Source: Halobacteriales archaeon
Lineage (GTDB): Archaea > Halobacteriota > Halobacteria > Halobacteriales > SKSH01
Reading direction: 5' to 3'
Length of the DNA: 64,000 nucleotides
NCBI GenBank assembly: GCA_007118145.1
Contig: SKSD01000030.1
Span: 62,001-126,000, forward strand
Shown: piece after piece, positions 257 to 17,245 of the stretch
Layout: each line of letters starts with the position of its first letter
Position numbering within the stretch: the stretch's first letter is position 1
The notes under the pieces: generated by a model
Told to the model about the DNA's origin: nothing
The model's database searches: none
The model's input: only the letters and a program-made list of their open reading frames with translations
Position numbers and translations under genes: made by a program

Positions 257-1099
257 TCAGTGACGGAAACGATCTCCCATGGCTCTGTGCGCGTCCCTGA
301 TCGGCATCGTCGGTGGCACCTCGGTGATGAGCGACTCGTATCGCTTGGGTACATCCCCCAACATGGCTCGGATGAATGCATCAGAGGCTGGCTCGACCGC
401 TACCTCGACTGACCGATCCGGTGTATCCTCGGCTGTGAGACGTTCGAAGAACGCACCAACGTCCTTGGCATACTCCTGATGGAATGGACGGAGCGTGCCG
501 GTATCGAGGAGCACGACACGACAATAATATCCAAGCAACTCACCGAAGAACGTGTCTACCACAGATGCATCACGCACGGGTGGGTTGGCGACGAGTTCAC
601 GATAGCGCTCACCCTTGTACCAGGTCGCGGTGGTGTCCTCATCGCTGACAGCAGCCTGCTCGAACGAGTCGACGAGCCGGTGTTCGGTACCGAGATAGCC
701 GTGATAGAGCTTGAGCGGATCGATGCCGTGGTCGATACTCCCGCTGGTCAGGTAATATGTGCCTGTCGCCTTCATCGGTGGCTCGGCAGGCTCTTCCCCG
801 ACGAGCAGTGCTGAGGTGCAATCCTCGACGGCCCACACACGGATCGTGCTCCGCTCGGCGTGGATCTCACCAAGAGCATCACCTGCGGTCGAGTAACAGA
901 TGGCGATCGGGTCACACCCCGCCGCCTCGAGATCAGAGACGGACTCCTGAACGGCTGCCGTGATGCGGGAATCGTCACCCGGATCGGCTGGCGATTCATG
1001 GAACTCCTGGGGGACATAGTTGACATCGACTGGTCGGTCGATCTGTTCGATTATATCGTACAGACTCGAACAGGCCACGCAGCCGGGCTGCTCGCTCAT
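257..1099 (-). CDS. DUF1638 family protein
   Basis: This is a 280-residue soluble protein of unknown biochemical function, assigned to DUF1638 from its overall pattern. DUF1638 proteins are often encoded near corrinoid methyltransferases and their activators in methanogens and anaerobic bacteria. Visible features are an N-terminal Cys pair (CVAC, residues 7-10), a central GSIDHGIDPLKLYHGYLG stretch and a YYCRVVLLDTG strand near residue 200. Its ATG overlaps the stop codon of the RACo gene by four bases (ATGA), so the two are translationally coupled and very probably work together. A role in corrinoid-protein activation or methyl transfer is inferred from this position, not demonstrated. Confidence 0.7.
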   Translation of the reverse strand: MSEQPGCVACSSLYDIIEQIDRPVDVNYVPQEFHESPADPGDDSRITAAVQESVSDLEAAGCDPIAICYSTAGDALGEIHAERSTIRVWAVEDCTSALLVGEEPAEPPMKATGTYYLTSGSIDHGIDPLKLYHGYLGTEHRLVDSFEQAAVSDEDTTATWYKGERYRELVANPPVRDASVVDTFFGELLGYYCRVVLLDTGTLRPFHQEYAKDVGAFFERLTAEDTPDRSVEVAVEPASDAFIRAMLGDVPKRYESLITEVPPTMPIRDAHRAMGDRFRH

Positions 1100-3036
1100 G
1101 ATTCACGAGGTTGCTCCACATCGATCGGTGTGCGGATCGATTCGAGGTCTGCCTTGACACCTGGGTAGGTATCGAACACCTGATGAGGGAGGTACATCGC
1201 CCGAAGGAACGCTGCCTCGAAGCGATCTGTCCCGGCTATCTCGTAGTAATCAACCTGTTCGACGATTCTCCCTGCCTCCTGTCGCGCATCGACATCGAGC
1301 AGCGCGAGTTGGGCACCGACCCCAGCCCCGTTACCGAGTTGTGTGATTGAGTCGTGGTCGACCTCTGGATACAGGCCGATGGTGACCGCAGATGACGGGT
1401 CGATATAGTTCCCAAAACCACCGGCGATAACGAGGCGGTCGATCGTATCGACACCGAGTTCATCCAGCAATACGCGTGTCCCCGCCTGGATGGCAGCCTT
1501 CGCCATCTGTACGTCTCGGATGTCGTTCTGTGTGAGGACGATGTCCTCCTCATCGGCTGCGTCACCACGTTGCACGACGAACTCCACCTCACCGTCAGCG
1601 TTGGTCCGTAGCCGTGGGTGTGCACCTGGATCGATGGCGAACGTCCCCCGTCGGTCGACGATACCGGCGAGGAAGAGCTGTGCGAGTGCATCGATCACAC
1701 CCGAACCACAGATGCCGATAGCAGGTTCGTCATCGATCGTCGTGACCGATACCTCGTGACTTTCAGGGTCGACTGAGACGCGTTCAATCGCACCAGGTTG
1801 TGCCCTGACACCATCGGTCAACTCTGCCCCCTCAAGTGCCGGTCCGGCCGGTGCCGAGGTGGTCCAGGTCTGTGTTGCATTCCCCACGGAGATCTCACCA
1901 TTCGTCCCGATATCGATACAGACCGTCATCGCCTCATCGCGGTAGTGTCCAGAGGCGAGCAGTACGGACACCTTGTCTGGACCGACCCAGCCACCACTGA
2001 CGGGTAGCCAGTGGAGGTACCCTGCGGGATGGATATCGATACCGAGCTCGCGTGCTTTGAGCGTGACGGACGCTTGCCTGGCGGGGATGTACGGTGACCC
2101 GGCGACGTAATCCGGGTCGTATCCCAGAAATAGGTGATGCATCGCGGTGTTGCCGACGAAGACCGCCTCATAGATCGCCTGCCGGTCGATACCAGCAGTA
2201 CCAACCACCTCCTCGATGGCGTCGTTCACCCCGGTGATGATGTCACGCTGGAGTCGCTCCCTGCCATCTTCCTCTCGCCTGCAGTAGCGCATCCTGGACA
2301 TGATATCTTCACCGGCATGGCGCTGTGGGTTCAACTGTGCGCTCACTGTCTCGACTGCACCAGTGTTGAGGTCGATCAGATAGACGGCTACGGTCGTCGT
2401 CCCGATATCGACCGCGAGTCCGTACATCGAGGGGAGACTGCCCGGATGGACATCGAGTATCTCACCACCGCGGTAGACCGTCGCGGTGAGTTCGATATGC
2501 TCACCGTCATCCCCGTTCCGGAGGGTGCTCGGTAGAGACTGGTGAACCTGGTGATCGATAGCGTCGATATCGAGGTTGTACTCAGCTGCTAACGCATCGA
2601 TGAGTCGCTCTCGGTCGGCACGATTATCGGCGAGCGACGGTGGGTCGATGAGCACCCGGTGGTTCGACACGGCTGGGTTGAGGTCGATCTCGAGCGATCG
2701 ACCATCAGTCAGGACGATGCCGCCGGTCACCTGCGAGACTGGTGGGACGATGATATCGACCGAGCCAGCCGCCTCGATCTCGACCCGGCAGGAGAGACGC
2801 CTGCCAGCGGCGAGCTCATCTTCGGTGAGGATGGTCTCCTCGACCTTCGAGACGGTGCTGAGACAGTCGGGCTCACCCTGGATATCCACCGGACACGTCC
2901 CACAGATACCCTCACCTCCACACAGGCTCTCGATACCGACGCCAGCTTCGCTCGCAATTGAGAGGACTGTCTCACCGACGGATGCCCGGGTGGTCACATC
3001 GTCTGGTTGGAACGACAGTTCTGCCTCCTCACCCAT
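1096..3036 (-). CDS. RACo/RamA-type reductive activator of corrinoid proteins
   Basis: This 646-residue protein has an N-terminal plant-type [2Fe-2S] ferredoxin domain and a large C-terminal ASKHA-type ATPase domain (DUF4445). Counting from the GTG nine bases upstream, the cluster cysteines are 42, 48, 51 and 86. The ATPase phosphate loops are VDIGTTTVAVYL (about 212) and CIDIGTNGEISVG (about 375), with AGGFGNYID near 545. The family reduces inactive Co(II) corrinoid proteins back to Co(I) using ATP hydrolysis. The ATG at 3036 is preferred over the upstream GTG because a GGGGTG-like site sits just before it. No corrinoid protein or methyltransferase is encoded in the window, so its client is unknown. 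A divergent ferredoxin gene lies 100 bases upstream. Confidence 0.85.
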   Translation of the reverse strand: MGEEAELSFQPDDVTTRASVGETVLSIASEAGVGIESLCGGEGICGTCPVDIQGEPDCLSTVSKVEETILTEDELAAGRRLSCRVEIEAAGSVDIIVPPVSQVTGGIVLTDGRSLEIDLNPAVSNHRVLIDPPSLADNRADRERLIDALAAEYNLDIDAIDHQVHQSLPSTLRNGDDGEHIELTATVYRGGEILDVHPGSLPSMYGLAVDIGTTTVAVYLIDLNTGAVETVSAQLNPQRHAGEDIMSRMRYCRREEDGRERLQRDIITGVNDAIEEVVGTAGIDRQAIYEAVFVGNTAMHHLFLGYDPDYVAGSPYIPARQASVTLKARELGIDIHPAGYLHWLPVSGGWVGPDKVSVLLASGHYRDEAMTVCIDIGTNGEISVGNATQTWTTSAPAGPALEGAELTDGVRAQPGAIERVSVDPESHEVSVTTIDDEPAIGICGSGVIDALAQLFLAGIVDRRGTFAIDPGAHPRLRTNADGEVEFVVQRGDAADEEDIVLTQNDIRDVQMAKAAIQAGTRVLLDELGVDTIDRLVIAGGFGNYIDPSSAVTIGLYPEVDHDSITQLGNGAGVGAQLALLDVDARQEAGRIVEQVDYYEIAGTDRFEAAFLRAMYLPHQVFDTYPGVKADLESIRTPIDVEQPRES

Positions 3037-3137
3037 GGCACACACCCCCGCTATCCTGTGTCACCGAGTACACCAGATCATGCCCTGGTACATGGCAAGA
3101 CCGATAGGTATCCATACCGAGGTGCACCTGTCGACAG

Positions 3138-3479
3138 ATGACCGCAGACGATCTTGACGGTGTGTACGAGATCACGTTCATCCACCCCGAAACGGGCAGT
3201 ATCTCGGCTCGTGCACAGGACGATGCGCCGTTGTTCGATGTTGCTCTCGAGTCGGGGATTGAGCTTGGTTACGGGTGTTACGATGGCACGTGTCTGAACT
3301 GTCTGGCTCGCCTGCGTGAGGGAGAGGTCGTCCACGCGAAGGAACCCGTCGCGTTGACGCCAGACCTGCTGGAGGCTGGATTCGTCCTCCTGTGTGTCGC
3401 CAAGGCCACGTCTCACTGCACCATCGAGATTGGTTCGCACCTCCGAGAGGAGGCATATCCGTCATTGTGGGGGGAGTGA
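3138..3479 (+). CDS. [2Fe-2S] ferredoxin
   Basis: This is a 113-residue plant-type ferredoxin domain. The cluster motif is GCYDGTCLNC (CxxxxCxxC, about residues 53-61), with a fourth cysteine in LLCVAKATSHC. Acidic residues predominate, as in halophilic ferredoxins. It is divergent from the RACo gene and convergent with the core methionine synthase gene. A plausible role is to supply low-potential electrons to RACo or to the corrinoid reactivation step, but general-purpose electron transfer is equally compatible with the sequence. It is shorter than the major haloarchaeal ferredoxin (about 129 residues), so it is probably a specialised paralogue. Confidence 0.8.
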   Translation: MTADDLDGVYEITFIHPETGSISARAQDDAPLFDVALESGIELGYGCYDGTCLNCLARLREGEVVHAKEPVALTPDLLEAGFVLLCVAKATSHCTIEIGSHLREEAYPSLWGE

Positions 3480-3500
3480 GCGACATCGGTCGTGTCGAGG

Positions 3501-4538
3501 CTAGTCTGCGTGAGTGAGTTCGATCCGGTCGTCGTCGAGGTCCGCCTCGACCAGCCGTGCCGCGCTTGCAAGGTTGCTCACCTTCTCGAACGCGACCGAT
3601 CTCGGCAGTGGTTTCAGGCCACAGTCAGGTGTGACCGTCAGCCGATCTGCAGGGACGTACTGTAGCGCGTTGCGGATGTTCGCCGCGATGGTATCGATGT
3701 CCTCGATATCCTTTGACTGTGAGTCGACGACACCGACGCTGACATCGACACCGAGGTCTACCTCGCCGAGAACCTGGTCGATCGCGTCAGCATCCTCGCT
3801 CGCGAACTCGAGGTCGACCTCGTCGACGGCGAAATCGAAGATGTCCGGAGCGAGTGTATCGTAGTTACCCGAGCAGACGTGCAGCCCGAGACGGACTGAT
3901 GCTGGGACATGGGATGCGATTTGTTCGATACTTTCCCTGGCGATCTCGACGTGCGGTGACATGCCTAGCGCTGGCTCATCCAGTTGGATCCATCTGGCAC
4001 CTGCAGCTGCTAATCGTTCGACCTCCCCGGCGACGAGTCCGGTGAAGTCATCGATCAACGTCTCCATCTCATCGTAGGCATCGAGGCTACAGAACGAGGA
4101 GAAGGTGAACGGACCTGGGAGGGTGACCTTGACCGGTCTGTCTGCGAGCTGGTGAGCGAAGGTGAAGTCATCGACGAGCCATGGCTCAAGCGTCTCGAGT
4201 TCACCCTCGACGGTCGGCATGTGTGCGTTCCAGTCACTGTCGTCATCTCCGGAGGGTGGTGCATACCCGTCGATGAACGGCGTGAAGTGCTCCACCATAC
4301 CGTCTCGTCTGATCTCACCATCGGTGATGACGTCCAATCCGGCTGCGGTGTAATCAGCGATCACAGCGCGACATCCATCCTCGAGTGCCTCCTGATAGGC
4401 CGCTTCACCGAGCTCATCGGCCTGATACGATGCCTGTACGGTATTGATCCACTCTGGTCGTGGGTGACTACCGACGACGGTCGTGAGGATGAAATGGTCA
4501 CTGGCGTGGTCATCGGGTCGAAACTGTGCTCTGGTCAT
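3501..4538 (-). CDS. Core MetE-like cobalamin-independent methionine synthase
   Basis: This 345-residue protein corresponds to only the C-terminal catalytic domain of MetE; the N-terminal half of classical MetE is absent. All four zinc ligands are visible: His220 and Cys222 (LHVCSGNYD), Glu244 (VDLEFASED) and Cys306 (TPDCGLKPLP). The domain transfers a methyl group to the zinc-bound thiolate of homocysteine. Core-MetE proteins are known to be able to use donors other than methyl-folate, including methyl-corrinoid proteins in some lineages. Location beside RACo and DUF1638 makes a corrinoid donor plausible here, but that is inference. A second methionine synthase copy, common in haloarchaea, is not seen in the window. 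Confidence 0.82.
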   Translation of the reverse strand: MTRAQFRPDDHASDHFILTTVVGSHPRPEWINTVQASYQADELGEAAYQEALEDGCRAVIADYTAAGLDVITDGEIRRDGMVEHFTPFIDGYAPPSGDDDSDWNAHMPTVEGELETLEPWLVDDFTFAHQLADRPVKVTLPGPFTFSSFCSLDAYDEMETLIDDFTGLVAGEVERLAAAGARWIQLDEPALGMSPHVEIARESIEQIASHVPASVRLGLHVCSGNYDTLAPDIFDFAVDEVDLEFASEDADAIDQVLGEVDLGVDVSVGVVDSQSKDIEDIDTIAANIRNALQYVPADRLTVTPDCGLKPLPRSVAFEKVSNLASAARLVEADLDDDRIELTHAD

Positions 4539-4569
4539 GCTCGGATGGTTGAGGCTAACGAGTGCAAGG

Positions 4570-4580
4570 ATTAAAACTTA
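4570..4580 (-). promoter_or_regulatory. AT-rich TATA-like element upstream of core metE
   Basis: An AT-rich patch (ATTAAAACTTA on the plus strand) lies 32-42 bases before the methionine synthase ATG. It fits an archaeal TATA box giving a very short 5' leader. A second AT-rich patch at about 4583-4605 could serve the divergent transporter gene. Confidence 0.4.
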
Positions 4581-4692
4581 TGGTTATTTTAGACGCGATA
4601 AAATGCTCTATAGTAATATCCTGTTCCATCAAACCCGGTACGTGAAGCCGCAATCGAGGTGACTTTCAGGGTCACGGGTCTCTCACCCGACT

Positions 4693-5592
4693 GTGAATCG
4701 AACGATCGGTTCAGTGCTGATACTTCTCGCCGCCATCGGGTTCGGGACGATCGGTATCTTCGGCAAGCTCGGGTTCGATGCCGGGTTGAACAACCCGACA
4801 CTGTTGACGTTTCGCTTCGCTATCGCGACAGTACTGCTCTCCCTCCTGTTGTTGCGACCGGGGCGGTCGTTACAAATGACCCGGAATGAGTTCCCGGTCG
4901 CCATCGGCCTCGGGGTCAGTTATGCCATCCTCGCAGGTGGCTTCTTCTGGGGGTTGCTCTACATCCCTGCCGGACTGGCAGCGATCACGCTGTATACCTA
5001 TCCGATCTATGTGTTCGCCATCTCTGTCGTCCTCCTCGGTGAGGTCATCAACCGCCGCAAGTTCGCCGCCTTGCTCCTGGCGATCCTCGGGGTCGTGGCG
5101 ATCGTCGGGTTCGACACGGCCGGATACGACCCCCGGGGGTTGTTCCTCGTCTCACTCGCTGCCATCGCCTACGCTATCTATACGACAGGGAGCCGCGTGG
5201 CCGTGAACGATATCAGCGCTGAGTGGCTCGCACTCTTTGCGGTCGCGACGACCACACTGGTCTTCCTCGGCTTCGGCCTGGTCACCAACGCATTGTTCGT
5301 CCCAACGACCCTCGAGCAGTGGGCGGTGATCATCGGTCTCGCTGTCTTCGGGACAGCTGCACCGATCGTGCTGTTCGTCTATGGGTTGGAGTTCGTCGAG
5401 GCAAGTCGGGCGAGTGTGCTGACGACGGCCGAACCTCCGGTCACGGTCATCCTCGGCGTGCTCATCTTACATGAGGTGCTCACCATCGGGATCGTCTCCG
5501 GTGGTGTGTTGATACTCATCGGGATCGTACTCATCCAACTCGACCAGCGGACGACGCGCCCGGCTGTCGCCCCGAGGGATGGCGATAGCTGA
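4693..5592 (+). CDS. DMT-superfamily (EamA) transporter
   Basis: This is a 299-residue integral membrane protein with about ten hydrophobic segments arranged as two EamA repeats of five, typical of drug/metabolite transporters. It starts at a GTG with the sequence MNRTIGSVLILLAAIGFG, so the first membrane helix begins at once. The C-terminal tail is short and charged. EamA proteins move amino acids, nucleosides or other metabolites, and the substrate cannot be read from sequence. It sits between the core methionine synthase and the dimethylglycine dehydrogenase-like operon, so a methylated amine, glycine derivative or amino acid is conceivable. This is context only. Confidence 0.8.
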   Translation: MNRTIGSVLILLAAIGFGTIGIFGKLGFDAGLNNPTLLTFRFAIATVLLSLLLLRPGRSLQMTRNEFPVAIGLGVSYAILAGGFFWGLLYIPAGLAAITLYTYPIYVFAISVVLLGEVINRRKFAALLLAILGVVAIVGFDTAGYDPRGLFLVSLAAIAYAIYTTGSRVAVNDISAEWLALFAVATTTLVFLGFGLVTNALFVPTTLEQWAVIIGLAVFGTAAPIVLFVYGLEFVEASRASVLTTAEPPVTVILGVLILHEVLTIGIVSGGVLILIGIVLIQLDQRTTRPAVAPRDGDS

Positions 5593-5709: not shown

Positions 5710-5817
5710 ATGGGCCTTCTAACCTTAGGTTTCGAACTAGAGGCAACCGACAGAGCGATCGGTCACCTCGAGGAAACCGACTGTAAACGCCCGTCAACTG
5801 GTGGTGTGTATCTATGA
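5710..5817 (+). CDS. Possible 35-residue leader ORF coupled to the downstream dehydrogenase
   Basis: A short ORF starting MGLLTLGFELEATDRAIGHL ends in a TGA that overlaps the ATG of the dehydrogenase gene (ATGA). A GAGAGGT stretch lies seven bases before its ATG and could act as a ribosome binding site. The combination suggests translational coupling or a leader peptide. It has no recognised homologue and could be chance. It also contains the 16-base motif repeated at 44168. Confidence 0.3.
   Translation: MGLLTLGFELEATDRAIGHLEETDCKRPSTGGVYL
5732..5747 (+). repeat. 16-base motif shared with the promoter at 44168
   Basis: The sequence TCGAACTAGAGGCAAC occurs here, 67 bases before the dehydrogenase ATG, and again at 44168-44183 just before the XRE regulator gene. 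Both copies are upstream of start codons. A shared regulator site is possible. A 16-base match in 64 kb is not by itself significant. Confidence 0.35.
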
Positions 5818-8342
5818 GCACGAAGGACTTCCCCACCAGTGCACGGACGGTCATCATCGGCGCGGGTATCGTCGGCAACAGCGTTGCGTACCACCTGGCA
5901 GAACAGGGGCGTACGGACATCGTCCTGATCGACAAGGGGCCACTCCCAGATCCAGGTGGCTCGACCGGGCATGCGTCGAACTTCATCTTCCCCGTCGAGC
6001 ACTCAAAGGAGATGACGCTCTTGACGCAGGATAGTCGTGAGCAGTTCAGAGATATGGACACCTTCACCCGCAGTGGCGGGATCGAGGTGGCACGTGACGA
6101 GGAGCGCCTAGAGGAGCTCAAACGCCGCATGCAATCGGCCAAGGCATGGGGCGAACCTGCGGAGATGCTCACCCCAGCGGAGGTCAAAGAGCTTGTCCCA
6201 TACATCAACGATGATATCATCCTCGGTGGCTTTCACAGCCCGGACGCAGGCGTCTGTGATCCACTCAGGGCTGGTGAGGTCATGCGTGCGAGGGCACAGG
6301 ACAAGGGTGCCCTCTCACTCGCACCCAACACCGAGGTGACGGATATCATCGTCGAGGGTGGCAGGGTCACCGCGGTCGAGACCGACCGCGGGACGATCGA
6401 GGCCGAGGAGGTCATCATCGCTGCCGGTCTCTGGAGCCCTAAGCTCGCCAAGATGGCCGGTGTCGAGATCCCTCTCACCCCGGCTGTGCACCAGATGATC
6501 AGTGTCGGCCCGATCGACCTCTTTGAGGAGGGCGAGGGTGAGATCAACTACCCGATCGTCCGAGACGTCGACACGCAGATGTATGAGCGCCAAAGCGGCA
6601 ACGACATGGAGGTCGGTTCGTACGAGCACCGACCCATCCTCTGGGATGTCGAAGACGTCCCCTCGCTCGATGAGGCACCGTTGTCACCCACACAACCGCC
6701 GCTGACGCACGATGCGTTCGAGCCATCGATGCAACATGCCCTCGAGATCATGCCGGAGATACTGGACGACCCATCCGTCGAGATTCGCCACGAGATCGAC
6801 GGCCTCCTCTCGGTCACCCCCGATGGCATGCCACTCATCGGCCGACTCCAGGATGTCGAGGGGTTGTGGTCGTGTGCGGCCATCTGGATCAAGGAGGGTC
6901 CTGCCTTCGGCAAGATGCTCGCACAGTTGATGACGCAGGGCTACTGCGATATCGATATCCACGCATCCGATGTCAACCGTTTTTACGAGTACGGTAACTC
7001 GCGGCGCTTTGTAAAGAACCGCGCAGACGAGGGTTACAGGAAGATCTACGGTATCATCCACCCGGCCGAGCAGTGGATGAGCTCTCGTGAACTTCGCACC
7101 AGCGCGTTTTACAACCGACAGCGAGACCTCGATGCGTACTTCTTCGAGGCAGCTGGCTGGGAGCGCCCACAGTGGTTCGAGTCGAACCGCGACTTGCTGA
7201 CGAAGTACAGTGCCGAGCTCGCCCACCTGATGCGACCCAACGAGTGGGACTCGCGGTGGTGGTCGCCGATCATCCTCGCCGAGCACCTCCACATGCGCGA
7301 CCACGTCGCGATGATCGGCGATACCGGCTTCACCATCTTCGATGTGGTCGGCCCCGGCGCGCTCGATTACCTCGAGCGTATCGCGGTCGGGCGGATGGAT
7401 GTCGATGTAGGTCGGTCGGTCTACACGCCGATCCTCGCCGAGAACGCTGGCTTCGTCTCCGACCTGACGATCGTCCGCCTCGCCGAGAACCGATTTCGCG
7501 TCATCACCGGTGGCGGCATGGGTGGAGCGGACAAGTCCTGGTTCAGGGCACACCTGCCAGCTGATGGGTCCGTCGTGCTGGACGACCAGACCTCTGCACT
7601 TTGTACTCTCGGGCTATGGGGTCCCAACGCACGTGACGTGCTCGCCTCCGTCGCCGAGGAGGATGTGTCACACGATGCCTTCCCACCGTACACCGCACAG
7701 GACGTCACCATCGGCGAGGTCGATGCATGGGCGTTCAGAATCTCGTACGTCGGCGAACTCGGCTGGGAGATCTACGCTCCGATGGAGCAGGGGCAACGCC
7801 TGTGGGACCTCATCGCCGAGGCAGGCGAACCACACAACATCCGACCCGCTGGCATGGGTGTGTATGGTACGACCGGACGTATCGAGAAGGGTTACCGACT
7901 CTACGGTCATGAACTCGAGCTCGAGTATGACCCAGCCGAGGCAGGTCTCACCTTCCACGGCGTGAAGGATCTCGACTTCATCGGCAAGGAGGCATATGCG
8001 GAGGCACTCGATGGCGAGCCTATCGCCAAGATGTGCACCCTCTCTGTCGATGATCACATGTCGTCAACGGGTGAGCGCCGCTTCATGCTGGGAAGCGAGC
8101 CGATACTCACGACCGACGGCGAGGAGATCGTCGACGACCACGGTCGCCGGTCGTACGTCACGACCGCGGGGACGGGCCCCAGCGTCGGCAAGCACCTGCT
8201 CATGGCCTACCTACCGACCGACCTCGCCGAGGAGGGTGAGCAGTTCCTCGTCGAGTACATGGGCGAGCAGTATCCCGTGTCGGTCGAGGTGGTCGGCAGC
8301 CGACCACTGTTCGACCCGAAGAACGAGCGGATCCGCTCCTGA
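5814..8342 (+). CDS. Dimethylglycine/sarcosine dehydrogenase-like FAD protein with GcvT domain
   Basis: This 842-residue protein has an N-terminal DAO-type FAD domain (IIGAGIVGN, residues 15-22) and, from about residue 430, a GcvT-like folate-binding domain plus GcvT C-terminal barrel. GGSTGHASNFIF matches the region that carries the covalently attached FAD in dimethylglycine dehydrogenases, with His53 as the likely attachment residue. The family oxidatively demethylates dimethylglycine or sarcosine and passes the C1 unit to tetrahydrofolate as methylene-THF. The genes for the two ETF subunits follow directly, so electrons probably go to ETF and then the quinone pool. The exact methylamine substrate is not readable, and related haloarchaeal proteins are often labelled only as FAD-dependent oxidoreductases. 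Confidence 0.82.
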   Translation: MSTKDFPTSARTVIIGAGIVGNSVAYHLAEQGRTDIVLIDKGPLPDPGGSTGHASNFIFPVEHSKEMTLLTQDSREQFRDMDTFTRSGGIEVARDEERLEELKRRMQSAKAWGEPAEMLTPAEVKELVPYINDDIILGGFHSPDAGVCDPLRAGEVMRARAQDKGALSLAPNTEVTDIIVEGGRVTAVETDRGTIEAEEVIIAAGLWSPKLAKMAGVEIPLTPAVHQMISVGPIDLFEEGEGEINYPIVRDVDTQMYERQSGNDMEVGSYEHRPILWDVEDVPSLDEAPLSPTQPPLTHDAFEPSMQHALEIMPEILDDPSVEIRHEIDGLLSVTPDGMPLIGRLQDVEGLWSCAAIWIKEGPAFGKMLAQLMTQGYCDIDIHASDVNRFYEYGNSRRFVKNRADEGYRKIYGIIHPAEQWMSSRELRTSAFYNRQRDLDAYFFEAAGWERPQWFESNRDLLTKYSAELAHLMRPNEWDSRWWSPIILAEHLHMRDHVAMIGDTGFTIFDVVGPGALDYLERIAVGRMDVDVGRSVYTPILAENAGFVSDLTIVRLAENRFRVITGGGMGGADKSWFRAHLPADGSVVLDDQTSALCTLGLWGPNARDVLASVAEEDVSHDAFPPYTAQDVTIGEVDAWAFRISYVGELGWEIYAPMEQGQRLWDLIAEAGEPHNIRPAGMGVYGTTGRIEKGYRLYGHELELEYDPAEAGLTFHGVKDLDFIGKEAYAEALDGEPIAKMCTLSVDDHMSSTGERRFMLGSEPILTTDGEEIVDDHGRRSYVTTAGTGPSVGKHLLMAYLPTDLAEEGEQFLVEYMGEQYPVSVEVVGSRPLFDPKNERIRS

Positions 8343-8405: not shown

Positions 8406-9173
8406 ATGGACATCCTAACCTGCGTCAAACGAGTACCGAATACCGGCGAGAAGATCGTACTGACCGATGACAAGCAGGCGGTCGATGCGAGCGGCCTCGG
8501 CTTCACGGTCAGTCCACACGAGGAATGTGCCGTCGAGGAAGCCATCCAACAGGTCGAGCAACACGGTGGGACGGCGACCGTATTGACCCTCGGCCCCGAG
8601 GACGCATCCGACGAGCTAGTCACGGCGGTGGCACGTGGGGCTGATGAACCCGTGTTGCTCGAGGCACCGGACACCTCCGCCGATCCGATGGCGACGGCCG
8701 ATGCCATCGTCGACTACATCGAGTCCCGAGGTGACGGTGAGGTGCCATTCGACGTGTTGCTCTTTGGGAACGAGTCGGCCGATGCTGGTAACTATCAGGT
8801 CGGTGTCAGGGTGGCCAATGCCCTCGGCCTGCCGTGTGTCACCGGTATCAAGGATATCGAACTCGAGGATACGACAGCCACGGCGAAACGTGAGGTATCC
8901 GGTGGCTGGGAGGTATTCGAGGTGCCACTCCCAGCGGTCATCTCTGTGAAGGAGGGGATCAACCATCCCCGATACGCCTCGATGCGAGGTCGCATGCAGG
9001 CTCGACGGACGCCGATTGAGACGGTCGAGGTCGACCTTGCGGGGGACGAGCGCTTCGAGATGGTCGAACTCGAGGTACCCGAGACAGAGGCTGCAGAGGC
9101 AGAGATCCTTGGAGACAGTGCGGACGCAGCATCGGCTGTCGTTGATATCCTCGAGGAACTGGAGGTGCTATAG
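8406..9173 (+). CDS. etfB: Electron transfer flavoprotein subunit beta
   Basis: This is a 255-residue EtfB. It opens MDILTCVKRVPNTGEKIVL, carries the conserved GxxxADxGNYQVGVRVA nucleotide-binding region around residue 120, and has the EtfB signature VSGGWEVFEVPLPAVISVKEG around 160-185. The beta subunit binds AMP and contacts the partner dehydrogenase. It lies 63 bases after the dimethylglycine dehydrogenase-like gene and its stop codon abuts the etfA ATG, so the three genes form one operon. The acidic tail of alternating Glu and Ala is typical of halophilic proteins. Confidence 0.93.
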   Translation: MDILTCVKRVPNTGEKIVLTDDKQAVDASGLGFTVSPHEECAVEEAIQQVEQHGGTATVLTLGPEDASDELVTAVARGADEPVLLEAPDTSADPMATADAIVDYIESRGDGEVPFDVLLFGNESADAGNYQVGVRVANALGLPCVTGIKDIELEDTTATAKREVSGGWEVFEVPLPAVISVKEGINHPRYASMRGRMQARRTPIETVEVDLAGDERFEMVELEVPETEAAEAEILGDSADAASAVVDILEELEVL

Positions 9174-10145
9174 ATGGTACTCGCGCTGGTCGAACATGTC
9201 GAGGGTGAACCGCTTGAGGAGTCGCTCCAGATGCTCACCCTGGCACGTGAGATCGCCGAGGCGGAGGGTGAGTCGGTTCATGGGGTGGCCTTCGGTGACG
9301 GTGTCGACGGCCTCACCGACCGTCTGGAGGATGCCGGTTTGGAGGTTCTATACATGGTATCTCTCGACGGTATCGACCGATATGCACCGATTGCATGGGC
9401 GGCGAGTCTCGAACAGCTCGCCGATGAGACCGATCCTGCAGCCGTGCTCGCCGCGGGGACTGATCGGGGCAACGAGGTACTCGCCCATATCGGGGCGCGT
9501 AACGACCTACCGGTGGTGGCGAACTGCCTCAGCGTCGAGGTGGGCGAGACGTACACGCTCGAACGCCAGCGATGGGGTGGAAGCCTCATCGAACATGCCC
9601 GACTCAGGGCAGGCCCGAAGGTCATGTCCGTCGCACTCCACGAACTCCCGATCGAGTCAGCTGGCTCCGGTGCTCCGACTGTCGAGTCGTTCACCCCAGA
9701 GCTGACCGAGGTCGAACACCTCGTCACCGTCGATCGCTTCGAGGAGTCTGAGGAGGAGGGTATCTCGCTCACCGATGCGAACGTCGTCATCGGTGGTGGC
9801 CGAGGTGTTGGCAATGCCGAGGACTTCGACAAGCTCGAAGAGCTTGCCGAGCTCATCGGTGCGGCGGTGGGCTCGTCACGAGCGGCTGTCAACGAGGGGT
9901 GGCGTCCACACGACGACCAGATCGGTCAGACCGGTGCGAAGATCTCTCCAGAGCTCTACATCGCCGCCGGTATCAGCGGTGCCGTCCAGCATATGGTTGG
10001 CTGCAAGGGGTCGAAACACCTGCTTGCGATCAACACCGATCCCGAGGCGGGTATCATCCAGAAGGCGAACTGGGCGGTCTTGGGCGATCTCCATGAGGTC
10101 ATCCCGGCGATCACAGAGGAGATCAGACGTCGACAGGGTGAGTGA
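9174..10145 (+). CDS. etfA: Electron transfer flavoprotein subunit alpha
   Basis: This is a 323-residue EtfA. The C-terminal FAD domain shows GGGRGVGNAEDF (about 205-215), SSRAAVNEGW, GQTGAKISPELYIAAGISG and AINTDPEAGI, which are the standard FAD contacts of ETF alpha. It is of ordinary length with no ferredoxin domain or fused extension, so it looks like the classical electron-accepting ETF that serves dehydrogenases rather than a bifurcating one. It immediately follows etfB. The ETF-quinone oxidoreductase that would reoxidise it is not in this window. Confidence 0.93.
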   Translation: MVLALVEHVEGEPLEESLQMLTLAREIAEAEGESVHGVAFGDGVDGLTDRLEDAGLEVLYMVSLDGIDRYAPIAWAASLEQLADETDPAAVLAAGTDRGNEVLAHIGARNDLPVVANCLSVEVGETYTLERQRWGGSLIEHARLRAGPKVMSVALHELPIESAGSGAPTVESFTPELTEVEHLVTVDRFEESEEEGISLTDANVVIGGGRGVGNAEDFDKLEELAELIGAAVGSSRAAVNEGWRPHDDQIGQTGAKISPELYIAAGISGAVQHMVGCKGSKHLLAINTDPEAGIIQKANWAVLGDLHEVIPAITEEIRRRQGE

Positions 10146-10248: not shown

Positions 10249-12003
10249 TTACTCAAACCTATCGACCCCATCACCTACCTCAGCGAGCTCCTCCACCAGC
10301 CCCAGTGACTCACATAACGAGGCCGTGGGGACCCCTTCTTGTGTCCATCCTCGCCGCTCATAATAGTGGCTGAGCAGCCGGGCGAATGCCAAGCGATCGA
10401 TCGTTGCATGATCACCTCCAGTGTCGATCGGCTGTGTGAACACCTTGGGAAGGTTGTCATCATCTCTCGTCACACCCTCGCGGATGTTGAACAGACGGGT
10501 GAGTGTCCATACCCGCTCGCCGATGCGCTCGAGTTCGCCACTCGTGATATCGACACCGATGGCGTCGAAGTACTCGATACCAAGATCCGCCTCGAATGCC
10601 GGGGCGGTGACATCATCCACGATGTAGGACCAGAGGAGCGAACTCCGGTTCTGCTCGTTGATCACCGCGGTGATGCGATCGTTATCGTCCCAGTTAGTAC
10701 CTGTCACCTCGGCGAACACCGGATGCGATCGGCGGTGACAGGCACCGCGGTCACTCGTCGCGAACGCGAGTGCCATCGATGGTGCACGCCTCGGGTCGTA
10801 TGATGCGGCTGACATCGACTTGACCGTCGGGACGAGGTTCGCACCGCCAAGACGTGACGCAGCCCGGTCGATACCGTCGGCGAGGAGCTCACCGAGTCGC
10901 GATGAGCGGGTGGCGATCTCTTCGATGAGCTGACTGGCATCCTCGACCGCATCGAAACGAACCGTCCGATCGATGACGCCTTCCTCACTGGCGAGCATCG
11001 CCCAGGCGACGGCGTTACCGGTCTCGATGAAGTCCATCCCGAGGGTGTCACACAGCCTGGCGAGGTGCACCACCTCGTCGAGATCACCGATACCGAGATT
11101 CGCACCGAGAGCGATACCCAACCCACCCCTTGGGACCACATCACCGACCTGGAAGTCACCCTCGACCTCGCTGCCGCTGGCCTCTCGGCCGTCGGCCCGC
11201 GACTGGATCGCGTCGATGCCGATCGCATCAGCCCCGTCGAATCGGCCCGCTCTCCATCCCATCGTCGGGAGCACGCCAAGCTCGTCGGCTGCATCCACCG
11301 TCTCGAGCGTCCCACTCGCGCGGTGAGCCCGACCCTCTGGGTGGTCGTGAAATCGCTCCTCATATCTCGCACGAATCGCCTCGAGTTCTGGGTTGGCAGA
11401 TGGCTCACCCCGTGCTACGATCGCCTTGAGCCGTTTCGATCCCATGACCGCACCTGTGCCTCCTCTGCCAGCGTGGTGGTCACCGCCATCGGTCGCGATG
11501 GTGGCGAATCGCACGAGTGACTCACCGGCAGGTCCAATCCCGGCGACTGCACCGTCGAGCGATGCATCGAGTTCCCTGACATCACTACCCCACAGGGCAG
11601 GTGTCTCGTCGATCTCAACCTCACCACCCTCGAGGTGGACGGTCACAGGTTCGTCAGCGACACCTTCGATGATGATACCGACGTGAGCACCGAGTGCGTC
11701 GACGAACGCGTCGGCAAAGGAGCCACCACTGTACGAATCGACGAAGATGCCAGTCAGCGGTGATTTCGTGATGGCTGCGAATCGTGTCTCACCAGGCAGA
11801 TAGCCCGAGAAGGGCCCTCGAAAGAGACACAGTACGTTGGCAGAGCCGAGGGGGTCGATATCCGGATTCAACATCTCGAACAGGTACCGCACACCGAGAC
11901 CCTTCCCGCCGATGAACGAACGACGCCATGGCTCGGGGATATCCTCGGCAGTCACCGCCCGCTCGGTGAGATCGACTCTGAGTACCGCCTCGGGAAGTGA
12001 CAT
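10249..12003 (-). CDS. Aldehyde ferredoxin oxidoreductase family protein lacking the Fe-S cysteines
   Basis: This 584-residue protein follows the AOR fold: N-terminal domain with FIGGKGLGVRYLFE (30-43), RGPFSGYLPGETRF (62-75), SPLTGIFVDSYSGG (81-94) and GTGAVMGSKRLKAI (182-195), plus the first pterin motif DTLGMD (319-324). The CxxCxxxC stretch before it and the later cluster cysteine are missing. Only Cys59, Cys318, Cys422 and Cys564 exist, none at the cluster positions; the fourth ligand region reads SYIVDD. Classical AORs are tungstopterin enzymes that oxidise aldehydes to acids with ferredoxin. This one may bind the cofactor without a [4Fe-4S] cluster, or be inactive. It neighbours the cofactor biosynthesis cluster. 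Confidence 0.8.
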   Translation of the reverse strand: MSLPEAVLRVDLTERAVTAEDIPEPWRRSFIGGKGLGVRYLFEMLNPDIDPLGSANVLCLFRGPFSGYLPGETRFAAITKSPLTGIFVDSYSGGSFADAFVDALGAHVGIIIEGVADEPVTVHLEGGEVEIDETPALWGSDVRELDASLDGAVAGIGPAGESLVRFATIATDGGDHHAGRGGTGAVMGSKRLKAIVARGEPSANPELEAIRARYEERFHDHPEGRAHRASGTLETVDAADELGVLPTMGWRAGRFDGADAIGIDAIQSRADGREASGSEVEGDFQVGDVVPRGGLGIALGANLGIGDLDEVVHLARLCDTLGMDFIETGNAVAWAMLASEEGVIDRTVRFDAVEDASQLIEEIATRSSRLGELLADGIDRAASRLGGANLVPTVKSMSAASYDPRRAPSMALAFATSDRGACHRRSHPVFAEVTGTNWDDNDRITAVINEQNRSSLLWSYIVDDVTAPAFEADLGIEYFDAIGVDITSGELERIGERVWTLTRLFNIREGVTRDDDNLPKVFTQPIDTGGDHATIDRLAFARLLSHYYERRGWTQEGVPTASLCESLGLVEELAEVGDGVDRFE

Positions 12004-12552: not shown

Positions 12553-13293
12553 ATGCGGTTGGTCGAGGCACTGGATGCGGACCAGGGGGTGGTGAGCGTG
12601 GTTGGTGCTGGTGGGAAGAAGTCGACGATGTACCGGCTGGCCGAACAGTTGGACCGTCCGCTGCTCACCTCGACGGTTCGGATCCCAATCTTCGACCAGT
12701 ATGTCGAGCGCGTCATCGTCACCGACGATCCTGTCGAGGCGGTCGCGAACGCGGAGGAGACACACTGGCCTCTCGGGGTTGTCTCCGAGCAGGATGGTTC
12801 CGATCGGTATCTCGGGTACCATCCATCCGTTATCGACACGCTCTCAGGAGTCGACGAGGTGCAGACGATACTCGTGAAGGCAGATGGTGCCCGGATGCGC
12901 AAGTTCAAGGCACCGGGTGAGAACGAGCCACAGCTACCGAGTTCGACATCGGTCGTGGTACCCATCGTCAGCGCGCACGTCATCGGTGAGCCGCTGTCCG
13001 ATGAGATCGTCCACCGAGTCGACCGAGTTGCACACCTCACCGGACTCTCACGTGGTGATACAATCACCCCATCCGCCGTCGCTGTGGTCATCGCCAGCCC
13101 GGACGGTGGTCACAAGGGCGTCCCTGATGGTGCAAGCGTGGTCCCACTCATCAACATGGTCGATGATGGGTCATTCCAGGACGATGCCAGGCGGGCAGCA
13201 GAGGAGATCTTGCGACGGTGTGATGCACCACGCGTCATCTTGACACGGCTCACCGCTTCGAACCCAGTCGTCGATACCATCGGGCGAAGTTAA
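12553..13293 (+). CDS. yqeC: YqeC-type cofactor accessory protein
   Basis: This is a 246-residue protein of the YqeC family, named for an association with selenium-dependent molybdenum hydroxylases. A P-loop-like [15 protein letters not shown] lies near residue 15-30, followed by a STVRIPIF strand and a [20 protein letters not shown] motif characteristic of the family. The reading frame is open further upstream, but the ATG at 12553 is preferred because a GGTG element precedes it and homology starts there. No selD, yqeB or xdhC partner is visible nearby. Adjacent genes are for Mo/W cofactor synthesis, so a cofactor maturation role is likely, but the reaction is unknown. It is convergent with moaA; their stop codons overlap. 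Confidence 0.75.
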
Positions 13294-14264
13294 TCAGCTG
13301 TCGGTGGCTGCTCGAGGTATGCCTCGTTGAGTTCCCACTCGCCGTTGGCGTTCTTGACCATGTACTCACCGTAAAACGGCACGCGATTGGCGACGACCGT
13401 CTCGAACGCCTCACGTATATCGGGCTTCGACATCGACCCCATAGGGACATAGTCATCGGTCCGGTTGAGACAGCCCTTGAGCTCACCCTGTGGTGTGACG
13501 CGCACACGGTGGCAGTTCGCACAGAAGGAGGGGTTCTCCACCGGATCGACGATCTCGACCATGCCGCCATCGACCCAGTATCGACGACGTGAGTGCATCT
13601 CACGTCGCTCGATGTGGTCTGCCCGACCAGCCAACCAGTCATGGACACGATCGATATCGATCGCCCACTCCTCGTTACCGGTCAGCTCTGGCATGTACTC
13701 GATGAGTTGCAACTGAAGCCCGGATTCACTCGAGACACGATCGACCATCTCGGGGATGTATGGTGCAGTCTGATCGAAGACGACCATATTGAGCTTGACC
13801 GGATGGAGGCCGGCTTCGAGTGCAGCATCGATCCCCTCGAGGACACGGTCGAACGCACCGGTCTTCGTCACCTGTGCGAACGCCTCCGGTTCCATGGAGT
13901 CCTGTGAGACATTGACTCGTTCGAGACCGGCATCGACGAGCCGTTCTGCCCGGCCTGGAAGGAACGTACCGTTGGTCGTCATCGACACCTCCATCGATGC
14001 CGGTGTGTTCGCGATAATCTCCTCGAGGTCCTGTCGGAGCATCGGTTCACCGCCGGTGAACTTGACCGCCTCGACACCGTACTCAGCGGCCACCTCTAAC
14101 ACGCGTATCACCTCGTGCGTCTCCATCTCGTCGTCCTGCGGGTCGAGCGGCCCGCGCGTATCGCCGAGGCCTTCGTTATGGCAATAGACACAGTCGAAGT
14201 TACAGCGATCGGTGAGAGATACCCGTATACCGGTGAGCTCACGACCGAACGCGTCTTCCAACAT
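13290..14264 (-). CDS. moaA: GTP 3',8-cyclase MoaA
   Basis: This 324-residue radical SAM enzyme catalyses the first step of molybdopterin synthesis, converting GTP to 3',8-cyclo-GTP. The N-terminal cluster cysteines are 21, 25 and 28 (CNFDCVYC) with the SAM-binding GGEP at 71-74. The C-terminal cluster cysteines are 248, 251 and 265 ([19 protein letters not shown]). The C-terminus ends EQPPTAD and lacks the terminal Gly-Gly of many MoaA proteins, so substrate closure may differ. A promoter region is shared with the divergent moaE gene. With moaC and moaE close by the pathway assignment is secure. Confidence 0.95.
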
Positions 14265-14352
14265 CTAGACGAGGTATGGCACGGGGTCGCATAAACCCCT
14301 TGCTGGTCTCCGTCGAGGTAGGTTCAAGGGCGTTCAGTACCTGCCATCGACC

Positions 14353-15150
14353 ATGTACGCGGTCAGGATCGAGACGGGTGCTACTCTCGACGAGGCCGAG
14401 GTTGCCAGGCGGGTGGCAACACACCTGGTGGATAGTGGTGAGGTTGCCACCCTCGAGCCACGTCGACGGTCACCCGCAAGGGTCGATGGCTCGCCATCGA
14501 TCGCATCGGTTCGTCTGTCGGCTGCGGATCAGGTGGAACTCGACCTCCCCGATCGAGACACCGCCGAGTTGCTCGATATGCTCTGTGACCTCGGGTTCTC
14601 GTACACCCTTGTCGTCAACGGTGACGATATCGACCTGCCCGTCATCTCAGTCGGCACCGAAATCGAGGAGGCGATACTCTCTGTCGAGCAGGTAGCACGT
14701 ATCGATGCATCAACGCTACGTGAAGCGATCGCACAGACCGAACCGCGTGAGACGCTCACCTCACTGGTCGAGAAGATACAGGACCATCCTGACTCTGCCA
14801 AGGCGGGTGCGATCGCAACGTTCACCGGTCGTGTCCGTGCCGATAACATCGAGGGTTCGCGGACAACCCACCTCGAGTACGAGAAGTACGACGGTGTCGC
14901 CGATGAGGAGCTGGCGGCCATCCGCGATGAGCTGGTCGCACGAGACGGTGTATACGAGGTGTTACTCCACCATCGGACGGGTGTGGTCGAGGCTGAGGAG
15001 GACGCCGTGTATGTCGTCGTCCTCGCGGGACATCGACCTGAGGCGTTTCGAGCTGTCGAGGATGGTATCGACCTCCTCAAAGAGCGCGTACCCATCTTCA
15101 AGAAAGAGGTGACCGAATCCGGTGATTTCTGGGCACACGACCGGCCGTAA
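14353..15150 (+). CDS. moaE: Molybdopterin synthase catalytic subunit with N-terminal extra domain
   Basis: This is a 265-residue protein. The C-terminal part (about 125-265) is MoaE: GAIATFTGRVRADNIEG, LEYEKYDG, HHRTGVVEAEEDAVYVVV, HRPEAF and the catalytic-region lysines in PIFKKEV. MoaE inserts two sulfurs from MoaD thiocarboxylate into precursor Z. The first 120 residues form a separate acidic domain without recognisable catalytic motifs, longer than bacterial MoaE (about 150 residues); similar long forms occur in haloarchaea. MoaD is not encoded in the window. The gene is divergent from moaA and convergent with moaC. Confidence 0.9.
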   Translation: MYAVRIETGATLDEAEVARRVATHLVDSGEVATLEPRRRSPARVDGSPSIASVRLSAADQVELDLPDRDTAELLDMLCDLGFSYTLVVNGDDIDLPVISVGTEIEEAILSVEQVARIDASTLREAIAQTEPRETLTSLVEKIQDHPDSAKAGAIATFTGRVRADNIEGSRTTHLEYEKYDGVADEELAAIRDELVARDGVYEVLLHHRTGVVEAEEDAVYVVVLAGHRPEAFRAVEDGIDLLKERVPIFKKEVTESGDFWAHDRP

Positions 15151-15159
15151 CGTGTCTCA

Positions 15160-15627
15160 TCAGTCGCCCTTGACCTTCTTGACGACCTCGATATCGCCGA
15201 TCCTTGTGGCTGGATACTGACCATCGGCGTCCTTTTCGAGGCTTTTGACCATGTCCCAGATGGTCAACAGTGCACCACTCACACCGTTGAGTGCCTCCAT
15301 CTCGACGCCGGTCTGCGCCGTGGTCCGCACCTCGGCAGTCGCGGTGACGTACCCGTCGCCGATATCGAACCTGATGTCGATGCTCGAGATGGGCAATGGG
15401 TGACACAGTGGGATCACCTCAGGGGTGCGTTTGACCGCTTGGATACCAGCAACCCGTGCCGTCTGCAGGACGTTCCCCTTCTCGACGCTCTCTGCGTTGA
15501 TCGCCTCGATCGTCGATGGTGAGAGGAAGATCGACCCCTCGGCAATGGCGACTCGGTCGATGTGTTCCTTGTCCCCGATATCGACCATCCTGACACGGCC
15601 ATCCTCCAGGTGTGAGAAGTCGCTCAT
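15160..15627 (-). CDS. moaC: Cyclic pyranopterin monophosphate synthase MoaC
   Basis: This 155-residue protein is the ordinary length for MoaC. It rearranges 3',8-cyclo-GTP to cyclic pyranopterin monophosphate. Conserved elements are MVDIGDKEHIDRVAIAEG near the start, PLCHPLPIS around residue 80 and TGVEMEALNGVSGALLTIWDM around 110-130, with the active-site KSLEKDA following. It is convergent with moaE, nine bases separating the stops, and lies 54 bases downstream of the cupin-MoaB fusion, so it may share that transcript. Nothing is unusual about it. Confidence 0.95.
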   Translation of the reverse strand: MSDFSHLEDGRVRMVDIGDKEHIDRVAIAEGSIFLSPSTIEAINAESVEKGNVLQTARVAGIQAVKRTPEVIPLCHPLPISSIDIRFDIGDGYVTATAEVRTTAQTGVEMEALNGVSGALLTIWDMVKSLEKDADGQYPATRIGDIEVVKKVKGD

Positions 15628-15681
15628 ACTGGGCGTGTGGTGGGCGTTGAACCTTATGGTGTCGGTCGCTCAGGATGTCGG

Positions 15682-16500
15682 TCACCGATGCGCCAGGCTG
15701 ACCACGTGATTCAACTCGGGGACGATCACGTCATCCATGGCGAGTTCGACCGCGTGTCGACTCCCTGGGATGGCGAACACGGCTGTCTCACCGACGATAC
15801 CAGCCGTGGCTCGCGACATGATGACGGCCGATCCGATGTCGTCAACACTCAGTCGGCGGAGGTGCTCACCGAAGCCGACGAGTTCCTTATCGAACAGCGG
15901 GCGGATCGCCTCGATCGTCACGTCATCAGGTGTGATGCCGGTTCCACCTGTGAGGATGATGGCATCCACATCATCGATCGCCCCTCTGACGGCCCGTCGG
16001 ATAGCCTGCTCATCGTCGTCGAGCATCTCGTATCTTGTGGGAGTATGACCCTCGGCCTCGAGCGATGCGTGGATGATGCGACCCCCCTCGTCATCGGCGA
16101 CCGTCCGGGTCGTACTCACCGTGAAGACAGCCACCTCTCGTGGATCGGTAGAAACGTGATGGTGATGGTCACCTCCACCAGATCCAGGGAGGGGTGCCAT
16201 CATGACGAGTGTGCGAAGTGGCTCATCGCCGTCATTGCGAATGCCGTGGCTGACCCCGGGTGCGGCGTGGACGAGTTGACCCTCTGCAATGTGTCGCTCC
16301 TCACCGTCGATGGTCGCGATGGCACGTCCCTCGAGGACGAGGTAGATCTTATCAGAGCCGTCGTGTGTATGGGGCTCTTGTGCCTGACCAGGCTCGAAGC
16401 ACCAACAGTCGACGAACATCCGCTCGGTGTCGATCAGATTGATCTTCTCGAATGACTCGGGTGAGAACGCCCCGATCGACCCAAGATCGTGTATCTCCAT
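15682..16500 (-). CDS. Cupin-MoaB fusion protein
   Basis: Two domains are joined in one frame. Residues about 1-105 form a cupin with metal-ligand pattern EPHTH (His47, His49), Glu60 and His88 (APGVSHG), numbered from an ATG nine bases upstream. After a glycine/histidine linker GSGGGDHHHH, the rest is MoaB/MogA, with ILTGGTGITPDDVTIEAI and FGEHLRRLS. MoaB adenylylates molybdopterin before metal insertion. A cupin fused to it is not an arrangement I know; it could sense or handle oxyanion, metal or a small ligand. The His-rich linker could also bind metal. An ATG at 16509 in the same frame is an alternative start. Confidence 0.88.
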   Translation of the reverse strand: MEIHDLGSIGAFSPESFEKINLIDTERMFVDCWCFEPGQAQEPHTHDGSDKIYLVLEGRAIATIDGEERHIAEGQLVHAAPGVSHGIRNDGDEPLRTLVMMAPLPGSGGGDHHHHVSTDPREVAVFTVSTTRTVADDEGGRIIHASLEAEGHTPTRYEMLDDDEQAIRRAVRGAIDDVDAIILTGGTGITPDDVTIEAIRPLFDKELVGFGEHLRRLSVDDIGSAVIMSRATAGIVGETAVFAIPGSRHAVELAMDDVIVPELNHVVSLAHR

Positions 16501-16561
16501 GCGACACATCTGAGGTAGCCCAGTGTCTTACCGTTTTCCTCCCCAAGAGACGATCCTCACA

Positions 16562-16582
16562 GGTTAACCCCGAGGTTTAACC
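16562..16582 (+). promoter_or_regulatory. Operator-like inverted/direct repeat in the cupin-moaB / mobA divergent promoter
   Basis: GGTTAA and TTAACC arms face each other across nine bases. The same bases also read as near-direct repeats AGGTTAACC and AGGTTTAACC. The site overlaps the TATA position for mobA (start 16610) and lies 62 bases from the divergent fusion gene, so a bound regulator could control both. Confidence 0.45.
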
Positions 16583-16609
16583 GCGTTCAGGTGCTCATTC
16601 ACCGATACG

Positions 16610-17245
16610 ATGCGGACCGGTGTCATCCTCGCTGGGGGGTATTCAACGCGATTCGGTGAGGCTGACAAGGCTTTCTCACACATCGATGGGACGCCACTCA
16701 TACGTCACGTTGCCGACCGTCTCAGGCCGGTCATCGACACCCTGGTGATCAATGCGCGGGAGGATCAACATGAGCGGTTCGCCAATGTCATGGATGGGTA
16801 CCCACTCGAGGTGACCTACGCGATCGATGACGTGGCAGGTGGTGGCCCCGTCTCTGGGATGGCGACCGGTCTGTCGGTGGTCCCTGAGGGGACGGCACTC
16901 GCGTTCGTCGTCGCTTGCGACATGCCGTTCGTCGAGGCTGACCTGGTCGATGCGTTGTTCGAGTTGGCCGAGGCCGAAGCTGACGTCGGTGCCGTGGTGC
17001 CCACCTCGAGCGATGGCTGGCACCAGGTGCTCCATGCAGTGTATCGACCAGCACCGACCATCGACGCCTGTCGAGCTGCCATCGCCCGAGATGAGCGCAA
17101 GGTGCTCGCACCGCTTTCACGCCTGCATGTCAGATACGTCGACCCGGATGAACTCACGCAATACGGCGGTGAGCGGTCGTTTGAGAACGTCAATACACCA
17201 GGCGAGTTGGAGGCTGCTGCTGCTGCGTTACAGTCGACCGAATAG
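16610..17245 (+). CDS. mobA: Molybdenum cofactor guanylyltransferase MobA
   Basis: This is a 211-residue nucleotidyltransferase of the MobA family. The signature GVILAGGYSTRFGEADKAF (residues 4-22) binds GTP, DGTPLIRHV follows, and FVVACDMPFV (about 100-109) gives the metal-binding Asp. MobA attaches GMP to molybdopterin to make the guanine dinucleotide used by bis-MGD enzymes such as DMSO-reductase family members. Its presence indicates that the host has MGD enzymes, none of which is in this window. The closing region PLSRLHVRYVDPDEL with ENVNTPGEL is also family-typical. An operator-like repeat overlaps its promoter. Confidence 0.9.
   Translation: MRTGVILAGGYSTRFGEADKAFSHIDGTPLIRHVADRLRPVIDTLVINAREDQHERFANVMDGYPLEVTYAIDDVAGGGPVSGMATGLSVVPEGTALAFVVACDMPFVEADLVDALFELAEAEADVGAVVPTSSDGWHQVLHAVYRPAPTIDACRAAIARDERKVLAPLSRLHVRYVDPDELTQYGGERSFENVNTPGELEAAAAALQSTE

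Follow-up and report, generated by a model that had tools for sequence, protein, structure and literature searches.

Background

In the aldehyde:ferredoxin oxidoreductases (AORs), electrons travel from tungsten to the pterin and from there to a [4Fe-4S] cluster. The ligands of this cluster in the Pyrococcus enzyme (1AOR structure) we take to be C288, C291, C295 and C494. According to a 2025 review (PMC12096430), all tungstoenzymes have been described with a bis-pterin cofactor beside at least one Fe4S4 cluster; Glu311, Tyr312 and Glu313 are conserved residues around the W site, the AOR second shell consists of Thr243, Glu313, Tyr427 and His448, and the YdhV and BamB clades are family members which do not have the usual second-shell residues. 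Formate dehydrogenases (FDHs) of the Halobacteria occur without FdhD, and a review leaves unanswered how they obtain their sulfurated cofactor and which proteins take part (PMC10609526).

Here we analyzed an AOR-family gene (P0001) in a window of 64,000 nucleotides from a haloarchaeon, that is, the whole stretch of DNA under study (positions 62001-126000 of contig 12; the assembly is 1.72 Mb and 79% complete). The protein had been reported in a preliminary description as an AOR homologue without the ligands of its [4Fe-4S] cluster. Alignments extend this observation from one gene to an order-wide cluster-free clade, which is best regarded as a variant of the known AOR family. In the literature searched, the coverage of which is incomplete, no published description of this clade was found.

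Gene and predicted structure

P0001 is an uninterrupted open reading frame of 584 codons on the minus strand (10249..12003), and the plus strand of the same interval contains many stops. The whole 584 aa product is spanned by the Pfam domains of the AOR/WOR family, AFOR_N (E 2e-60) and AFOR_C (E 3e-85), and the closest solved structures in a PDB sequence search were 9mqx, 1aor, 8c0z, 9q1t (HvWOR83) and 1b25; P0001 is a full-length AOR-family protein. An AlphaFold2 model was made from a 70-row alignment (pLDDT 93.7, pTM 0.94) and matched by Foldseek to 9mqx, 1b25 and 1aor at TM 0.91. The AOR fold, as predicted, is complete, in keeping with the homology first proposed, and the confidence of the model dips only in the former cluster loop (residues 271-290), in residues 421-440 and at the C-terminus.

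Lost cluster ligands and changes in the active site

In the alignment to 1AOR, none of the four ligand positions is Cys in P0001, and the same is true of 58/58 clade members. RE-ASGSEVEGDF stands where AORs have the CxxCxxxC loop, and the segment equivalent to C288/C291/C295 (E-ASGSEVEGD, residues 274-283; 11155..11184, minus strand) is without Cys. The position of C494 is taken by D463, which lies inside SYIVDD, the very reading given in the preliminary description. In place of the second pterin/cluster motif D489xxGLC494 the protein has WSYIVDD (residues 458-464; 10612..10632, minus strand), where W458 replaces the pterin anchor Asp489; this Trp and the Asp at 463 are both present in 58/58 members, although D489 is variable in some cluster-bearing relatives too.

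The changes go beyond the cluster. R292-G293-G294 (11122..11130, minus strand) occupies the place of Glu311-Tyr312-Glu313 of 1AOR, and across the clade these positions are Arg (58/58), Gly (58/58) and Ala/Gly/Ser (58/58), against E, Y/F and E in 68/68 others. All four Cys together with Glu313 are lost in every clade member and kept in all 68 cluster-bearing homologues; on this residue table, chance is ruled out as the source of the cluster-free state (58/58 in the clade versus 0/68). The ligand loss claimed earlier is therefore real, but it was an incomplete account: Glu311-Tyr312-Glu313 and Asp489 have changed as well, whereas the rest of the second shell (three of its four residues) has been kept.

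The four Cys of P0001 (C59, C318, C422 and C564) lie elsewhere, as had been noticed. They do not rebuild the site, because C318 and C422 align with C337 and C447 of 1AOR, which are Cys there but not cluster ligands, and no conserved set of four Cys was found in the clade alignment. A cluster site on other Cys is ruled out by the alignment, barring a cluster on non-Cys ligands.

Retained pocket and new invariant residues

P0001 keeps the equivalents of R76, T243, D338, D343, Y427 and H448 of 1AOR. Within the clade, Thr243, His448 and Asp343 are each found in 58/58 members and Tyr427 and Arg76 each in 56/58, and the residues of the bis-metallopterin pocket are present, both the N-terminal pterin/phosphate residues, including the AGRGG/GSK region, and D338xxG(L)D343 with D338 as D or N. 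The first pterin motif, reported before as DTLGMD, is retained as CDTLGMD (residues 318-324; 11032..11052, minus strand). So is the SDRGACHRRS block (residues 417-426; 10726..10755, minus strand), which holds His423, the counterpart of His448, and the clade-specific Arg424. The cofactor pocket looks intact, since Thr243, Tyr427, His448 and Asp343 are kept.

At about 50% identity among its members, the clade has gained the invariant residues R292, R424, W458, D463 and E234. These new residues at the site, along with the kept second shell, argue for a rebuilt active site and not for decay; the clade is under purifying selection across the order.

Origin and distribution of the clade

The cluster-free state is shared by 58 haloarchaeal sequences from independent assemblies, so the clade with the same loss, whose existence was left to be seen, does exist. 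In a maximum-likelihood tree (a quick build with SH-aLRT support, compositional heterogeneity being present), all 55 distinct cluster-free rows form a single branch (support 100) that lies within the cluster-bearing AORs. The neighbours of this branch are the cluster-bearing haloarchaeal proteins L053/L054, followed by L102, L103 and L113 of Thermoplasmata. By this topology the [4Fe-4S] cluster was lost once, with a single origin.

Scores over 295 genomes across the phylum were bimodal, with values of at least 865 bits in this order only and values of 621 bits or less for the remainder; all lower-score representatives inspected (L053, L054, L152, L153, L157) have Cys, and no cluster-free homologue was found outside this order among the 295 genomes sampled. 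A search of viral contigs gave no relative. The single-sequence scan of genome contigs with P0001 also gave none, while the profile scan and the whole-genome search found the relatives.

In L053/L054, L102, L103 and L113 the residue at the Asp489 position is already F or W. Outside the haloarchaeal order, W for Asp489 is seen in the cluster-bearing L102, L103, L113 and L152 (G255:C28), an intermediate state, and L152 pairs it with a complete Cys set. Because of these relatives, the change at 489 appears older than the loss of the cluster. The L103/L113 genes have a dicluster-ferredoxin gene directly upstream, whereas the cluster-free genes are without such a neighbour.

Neighbourhood in the window and on the contig

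P0001 sits between a dimethylglycine oxidase/dehydrogenase gene with etfBA and a YqeC/moa/mobA/moeA set. The N,N-dimethylglycine oxidase/dehydrogenase (5814..8342, plus strand; DAO and GCV_T in Pfam; 1pj5 at E 3e-154) is C1-generating, and the etfB and etfA genes (8406..10145, plus strand; named from sequence) are convergent with P0001. The divergent neighbour is a YqeC homologue (12559..13293, plus strand; TIGR03172 at 167 bits against a cut-off of 73), found in the same order in G001. It is followed by moaA, a radical-SAM gene of a recurrent neighbour family (13290..14264, minus strand), a moaE-type molybdopterin synthase gene, MobB-MoaE-like (14353..15150, plus strand; NF011061 above cut-off), moaC (15160..15627, minus strand), a cupin-moaB fusion (15682..16500, minus strand; TIGR02667/TIGR00177) and a mobA-like guanylyltransferase gene (16610..17245, plus strand; TIGR02665, NTP_transf_3), moaA and moaC being named from sequence. 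With two moeA-like genes also in the window, the cofactor gene set described beside the gene is borne out.

The window region 260-5589 looks like a region of methyl-group/betaine catabolism. It adjoins the dimethylglycine dehydrogenase and holds an AcsV/RACo-related corrinoid-activation protein (1099-3036), a small ferredoxin-like protein (3138-3476), a methionine-synthase-like protein (3504-4538) and an EamA-like transporter. Genes for FTHFS, FdhA, a BCCT transporter and FolD lie on this contig to the left of the window. Probable glycine cleavage genes (T, H and two P subunits, named from sequence) lie at 49580-53909 of the window and are consistent with betaine-to-glycine C1 metabolism.

Genomic context across loci

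The context of 55 non-redundant cluster-free loci was compared with that of 28 loci of cluster-bearing AORs, most of them in the same genomes, within a range of about 8 kb, using neighbour families built from coding-potential gene calls. FdhA was found in 30/55 cluster-free loci, YqeC in 28/55, TorD in 17/55 and an Hdr/FlpD-like protein in 16/55, against 0/28 cluster-bearing loci for each of these; MobA was near 18/55 versus 1/28. The link is to formate dehydrogenase and YqeC/MobA specifically, not to Moco genes in general.

Three FDH architectures are linked to the cluster-free gene: one with a NuoF-type beta subunit, one with an alpha subunit of about 700 aa plus fam11, and the Hdr/FlpD type. 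Likely co-transcribed units are fdhA-AOR-formaldehyde dehydrogenase in L036 (fdhA-AOR gap of about 11 nt) and L042, DMGDH-AOR-fdhB-fdhA in L076, and AOR-DUF7124 in L091, where stop and start overlap as ATGA. C1-folate genes (FTHFS, FolD, FolC/P, SHMT, BCCT and DMGDH) stand beside other cluster-free copies, and the copies in L034, L039 and L096 have C1 genes as neighbours but neither a Moco nor an FDH gene in the vicinity. Many loci of the Hdr/FlpD-type FDH have no formaldehyde or folate gene.

Some small families recur at these loci. In 21/55 loci the gene after the cluster-free AOR is a DUF7124 paralogue (9758-10429 in L091); as a specific partner the domain was set aside, being present in 57/59 genomes, and only the AOR-linked paralogue may matter. 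The fam11 protein (about 190 aa; L081:13568-14125, L052:6450-7073, L154:9189-9758) lies beside the FdhA type of about 700 aa and gave no Pfam or NCBIfam match in the one member scanned. The fam6 protein (about 113 aa; L047:6547-6885) is found in 16/55 loci, flanked by DUF7124 on one side and by the TorD/Hdr-FlpD genes of the FDH operon on the other.

Among 59 related genomes, 25 have the cluster-free gene. Cluster-bearing AOR occurs in 25/25 of these versus 12/34 others, YqeC in 25/25 versus 10/34 and an FdhA-like gene (E<=1e-60) in 25/25 versus 11/34, with Fisher p of about 1e-8 to 7e-8 when shared ancestry is ignored; FTHFS is present in 12/25 versus 3/34. FdhD was found in none of these haloarchaeal genomes (0/59), many of which have FDH-like genes; this matches the remark in PMC10609526. 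The YqeC-MobA pair recurs beside FDH-like genes with or without the cluster-free AOR (L178-L182, L189-L191 and window 12559-17245). As the pair recurs there and FdhD is absent from the 59 genomes, YqeC is a candidate FdhD substitute.

Functional interpretation

The function of the protein has probably diverged from that of its AOR relatives. Its residues make the role of an ordinary aldehyde:ferredoxin oxidoreductase unlikely, since the cluster and Glu313 are lost. With Glu313, the proposed general acid/base of AOR, gone and Glu311 charge-reversed, any chemistry must be of another kind, and there may be none; with Asp489 gone the binding of the cofactor is not certain. The choice posed at the outset, between another electron route and a non-redox relative, still holds.

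We tentatively favour a neofunctionalised, cofactor-binding, cluster-free AOR paralogue which serves formate/C1 metabolism. The clade would have lost the [4Fe-4S] cluster once, kept the bis-metallopterin pocket (W or Mo), with the cofactor presumably still bound, and then gained a formate or one-carbon function. In favour of this reading are the residue table, the single well-supported clade, the predicted AOR fold, the new invariant residues, FdhA near 30/55 loci, the apparent operons with fdhA, formaldehyde dehydrogenase or DMGDH, and the C1-folate genes beside other copies. As there is no electron relay, the reaction would be completed at the metal itself. It may follow a ping-pong scheme with two substrates, as in a dismutase or transhydrogenase, it may send electrons straight to an acceptor that diffuses or docks, or it may be non-redox chemistry of the acetylene hydratase kind. 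We would expect a small C1 aldehyde or carboxylate as substrate, with formate as its product or source, and the clade-specific Arg292/Arg424 beside His423 would favour an anion. Against this enzyme reading, the MobA, YqeC and Moa neighbours fit a maturation role equally well, many Hdr/FlpD-type loci lack formaldehyde or folate genes, and the substrate is suggested only as a class, C1. With similar reserve we put forward a bis-metallopterin AOR-family protein without an Fe-S cluster which supplies a missing step of the FdhD-less haloarchaeal FDH system, either by delivering or tailoring the cofactor or by a reaction linked directly to formate.

A role in FDH maturation is somewhat doubtful but possible, the handling of bis-MPT being nearly as likely as the C1 enzyme. 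Here a retired AOR would bind W/Mo-bis-MPT, the pre-MobA intermediate, and store it, select it or pass it to FDH in organisms without FdhD. The absence of FdhD beside common FDH-like genes, the open question on cofactor supply, the YqeC, MobA and TorD neighbours, the full co-occurrence with YqeC, FDH-like genes and cluster-bearing AOR, the link to three FDH operon types, and a retained pocket from which electron relay and catalytic Glu have gone all speak for it. However, YqeC-MobA-FDH islands without the gene occur in five genomes (G022, G042, G044, G046, G054), with FDHs 57-84% identical to the queries. The gene therefore cannot be essential for FDH maturation and is not needed merely to build these FDH types, a result which weakens the idea of an essential factor; moreover, the new invariant active-site residues suggest catalysis, and the three copies beside C1 genes have no Moco or FDH gene near them.

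It is rather improbable that the protein is a pseudoenzyme or regulatory subunit which no longer binds the cofactor and acts as partner or regulator of an FDH or a cluster-bearing AOR. The joint loss of cluster, Glu313 and Asp489 would fit, as would the presence of a cluster-bearing AOR in every genome with the gene, and the ATGA overlap and frequent adjacency with DUF7124 suggest a partner protein. But the conservation of T243, H448, D343, Y427 and AGRGG/GSK is hard to explain without cofactor binding, and the closest cluster-bearing AOR gene lies elsewhere in the genome.

An ordinary AOR with its cluster on other ligands, or a sequencing or assembly artefact, is very improbable: one of the ligands in Pyrococcus WOR5 is an Asp (PMC12096430), and a C494->D change by itself could therefore be accommodated, but the three loop Cys are gone too, no alternative conserved Cys exists, and intact frames and invariant columns in 58 sequences from independent assemblies dispose of an assembly error or pseudogene.

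Significance

This conserved, order-wide clade is an apparent exception to the rule of cofactor plus cluster. An exception with an intact pocket would separate the role of the cluster from that of the cofactor, and would have its parallel in those DMSO-reductase-family enzymes that are without a cluster. The recurrent YqeC-MobA-FDH island, in which the cluster-free AOR is frequently present, provides named candidates for haloarchaeal FDH maturation without FdhD. Homologues are present in Haloarcula (japonica, argentinensis, sebkhae), and therefore culturable strains exist.

Comparison with known systems

The clade shares with P. furiosus AOR (1AOR), 9mqx, 9g7j and 8c0z the fold (TM about 0.9), the N-terminal pterin/phosphate region, the first pterin motif, Thr243, Tyr427 and His448; unlike these, it is without the [4Fe-4S] ligands, Glu311/Tyr312/Glu313 and Asp489, and its genomic context is different. 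With Haloferax volcanii WOR83 (9q1t) and its haloarchaeal orthologues it has the family and the order of organisms in common, but WOR83-type proteins keep CHSCPVAC, EYE and DSFDIC and form a separate clade, the identity being about 45% in the N domain and about 34% in the C domain. The sisters L053/L054 of haloarchaea and L102/L103/L113 of Thermoplasmata are 37-44% identical and share the F or W at 489, but they have four Cys and Glu313, and L103/L113 a ferredoxin-subunit gene.

TorA, DorA and BisC of the DMSO-reductase family, an unrelated fold family with the bis-MGD cofactor, are cluster-free bis-pterin enzymes. They are a precedent for bis-pterin family members without an Fe-S cluster, though no haem partner comparable to theirs was identified for the cluster-free AOR. 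The FDH sulfurtransferase/chaperone FdhD may have its functional slot in common with the clade, in FdhD-less organisms with FDH, but has no sequence relation to it. Judged on the absent cluster ligands, the clade does not belong with YdhV/BamB, in which a metal-ligating Cys (Cys336 in YdhV) goes with a [4Fe-4S] cluster; those clades retain the cluster and have gained a Cys that ligates the metal, and the present clade is nearly the reverse.
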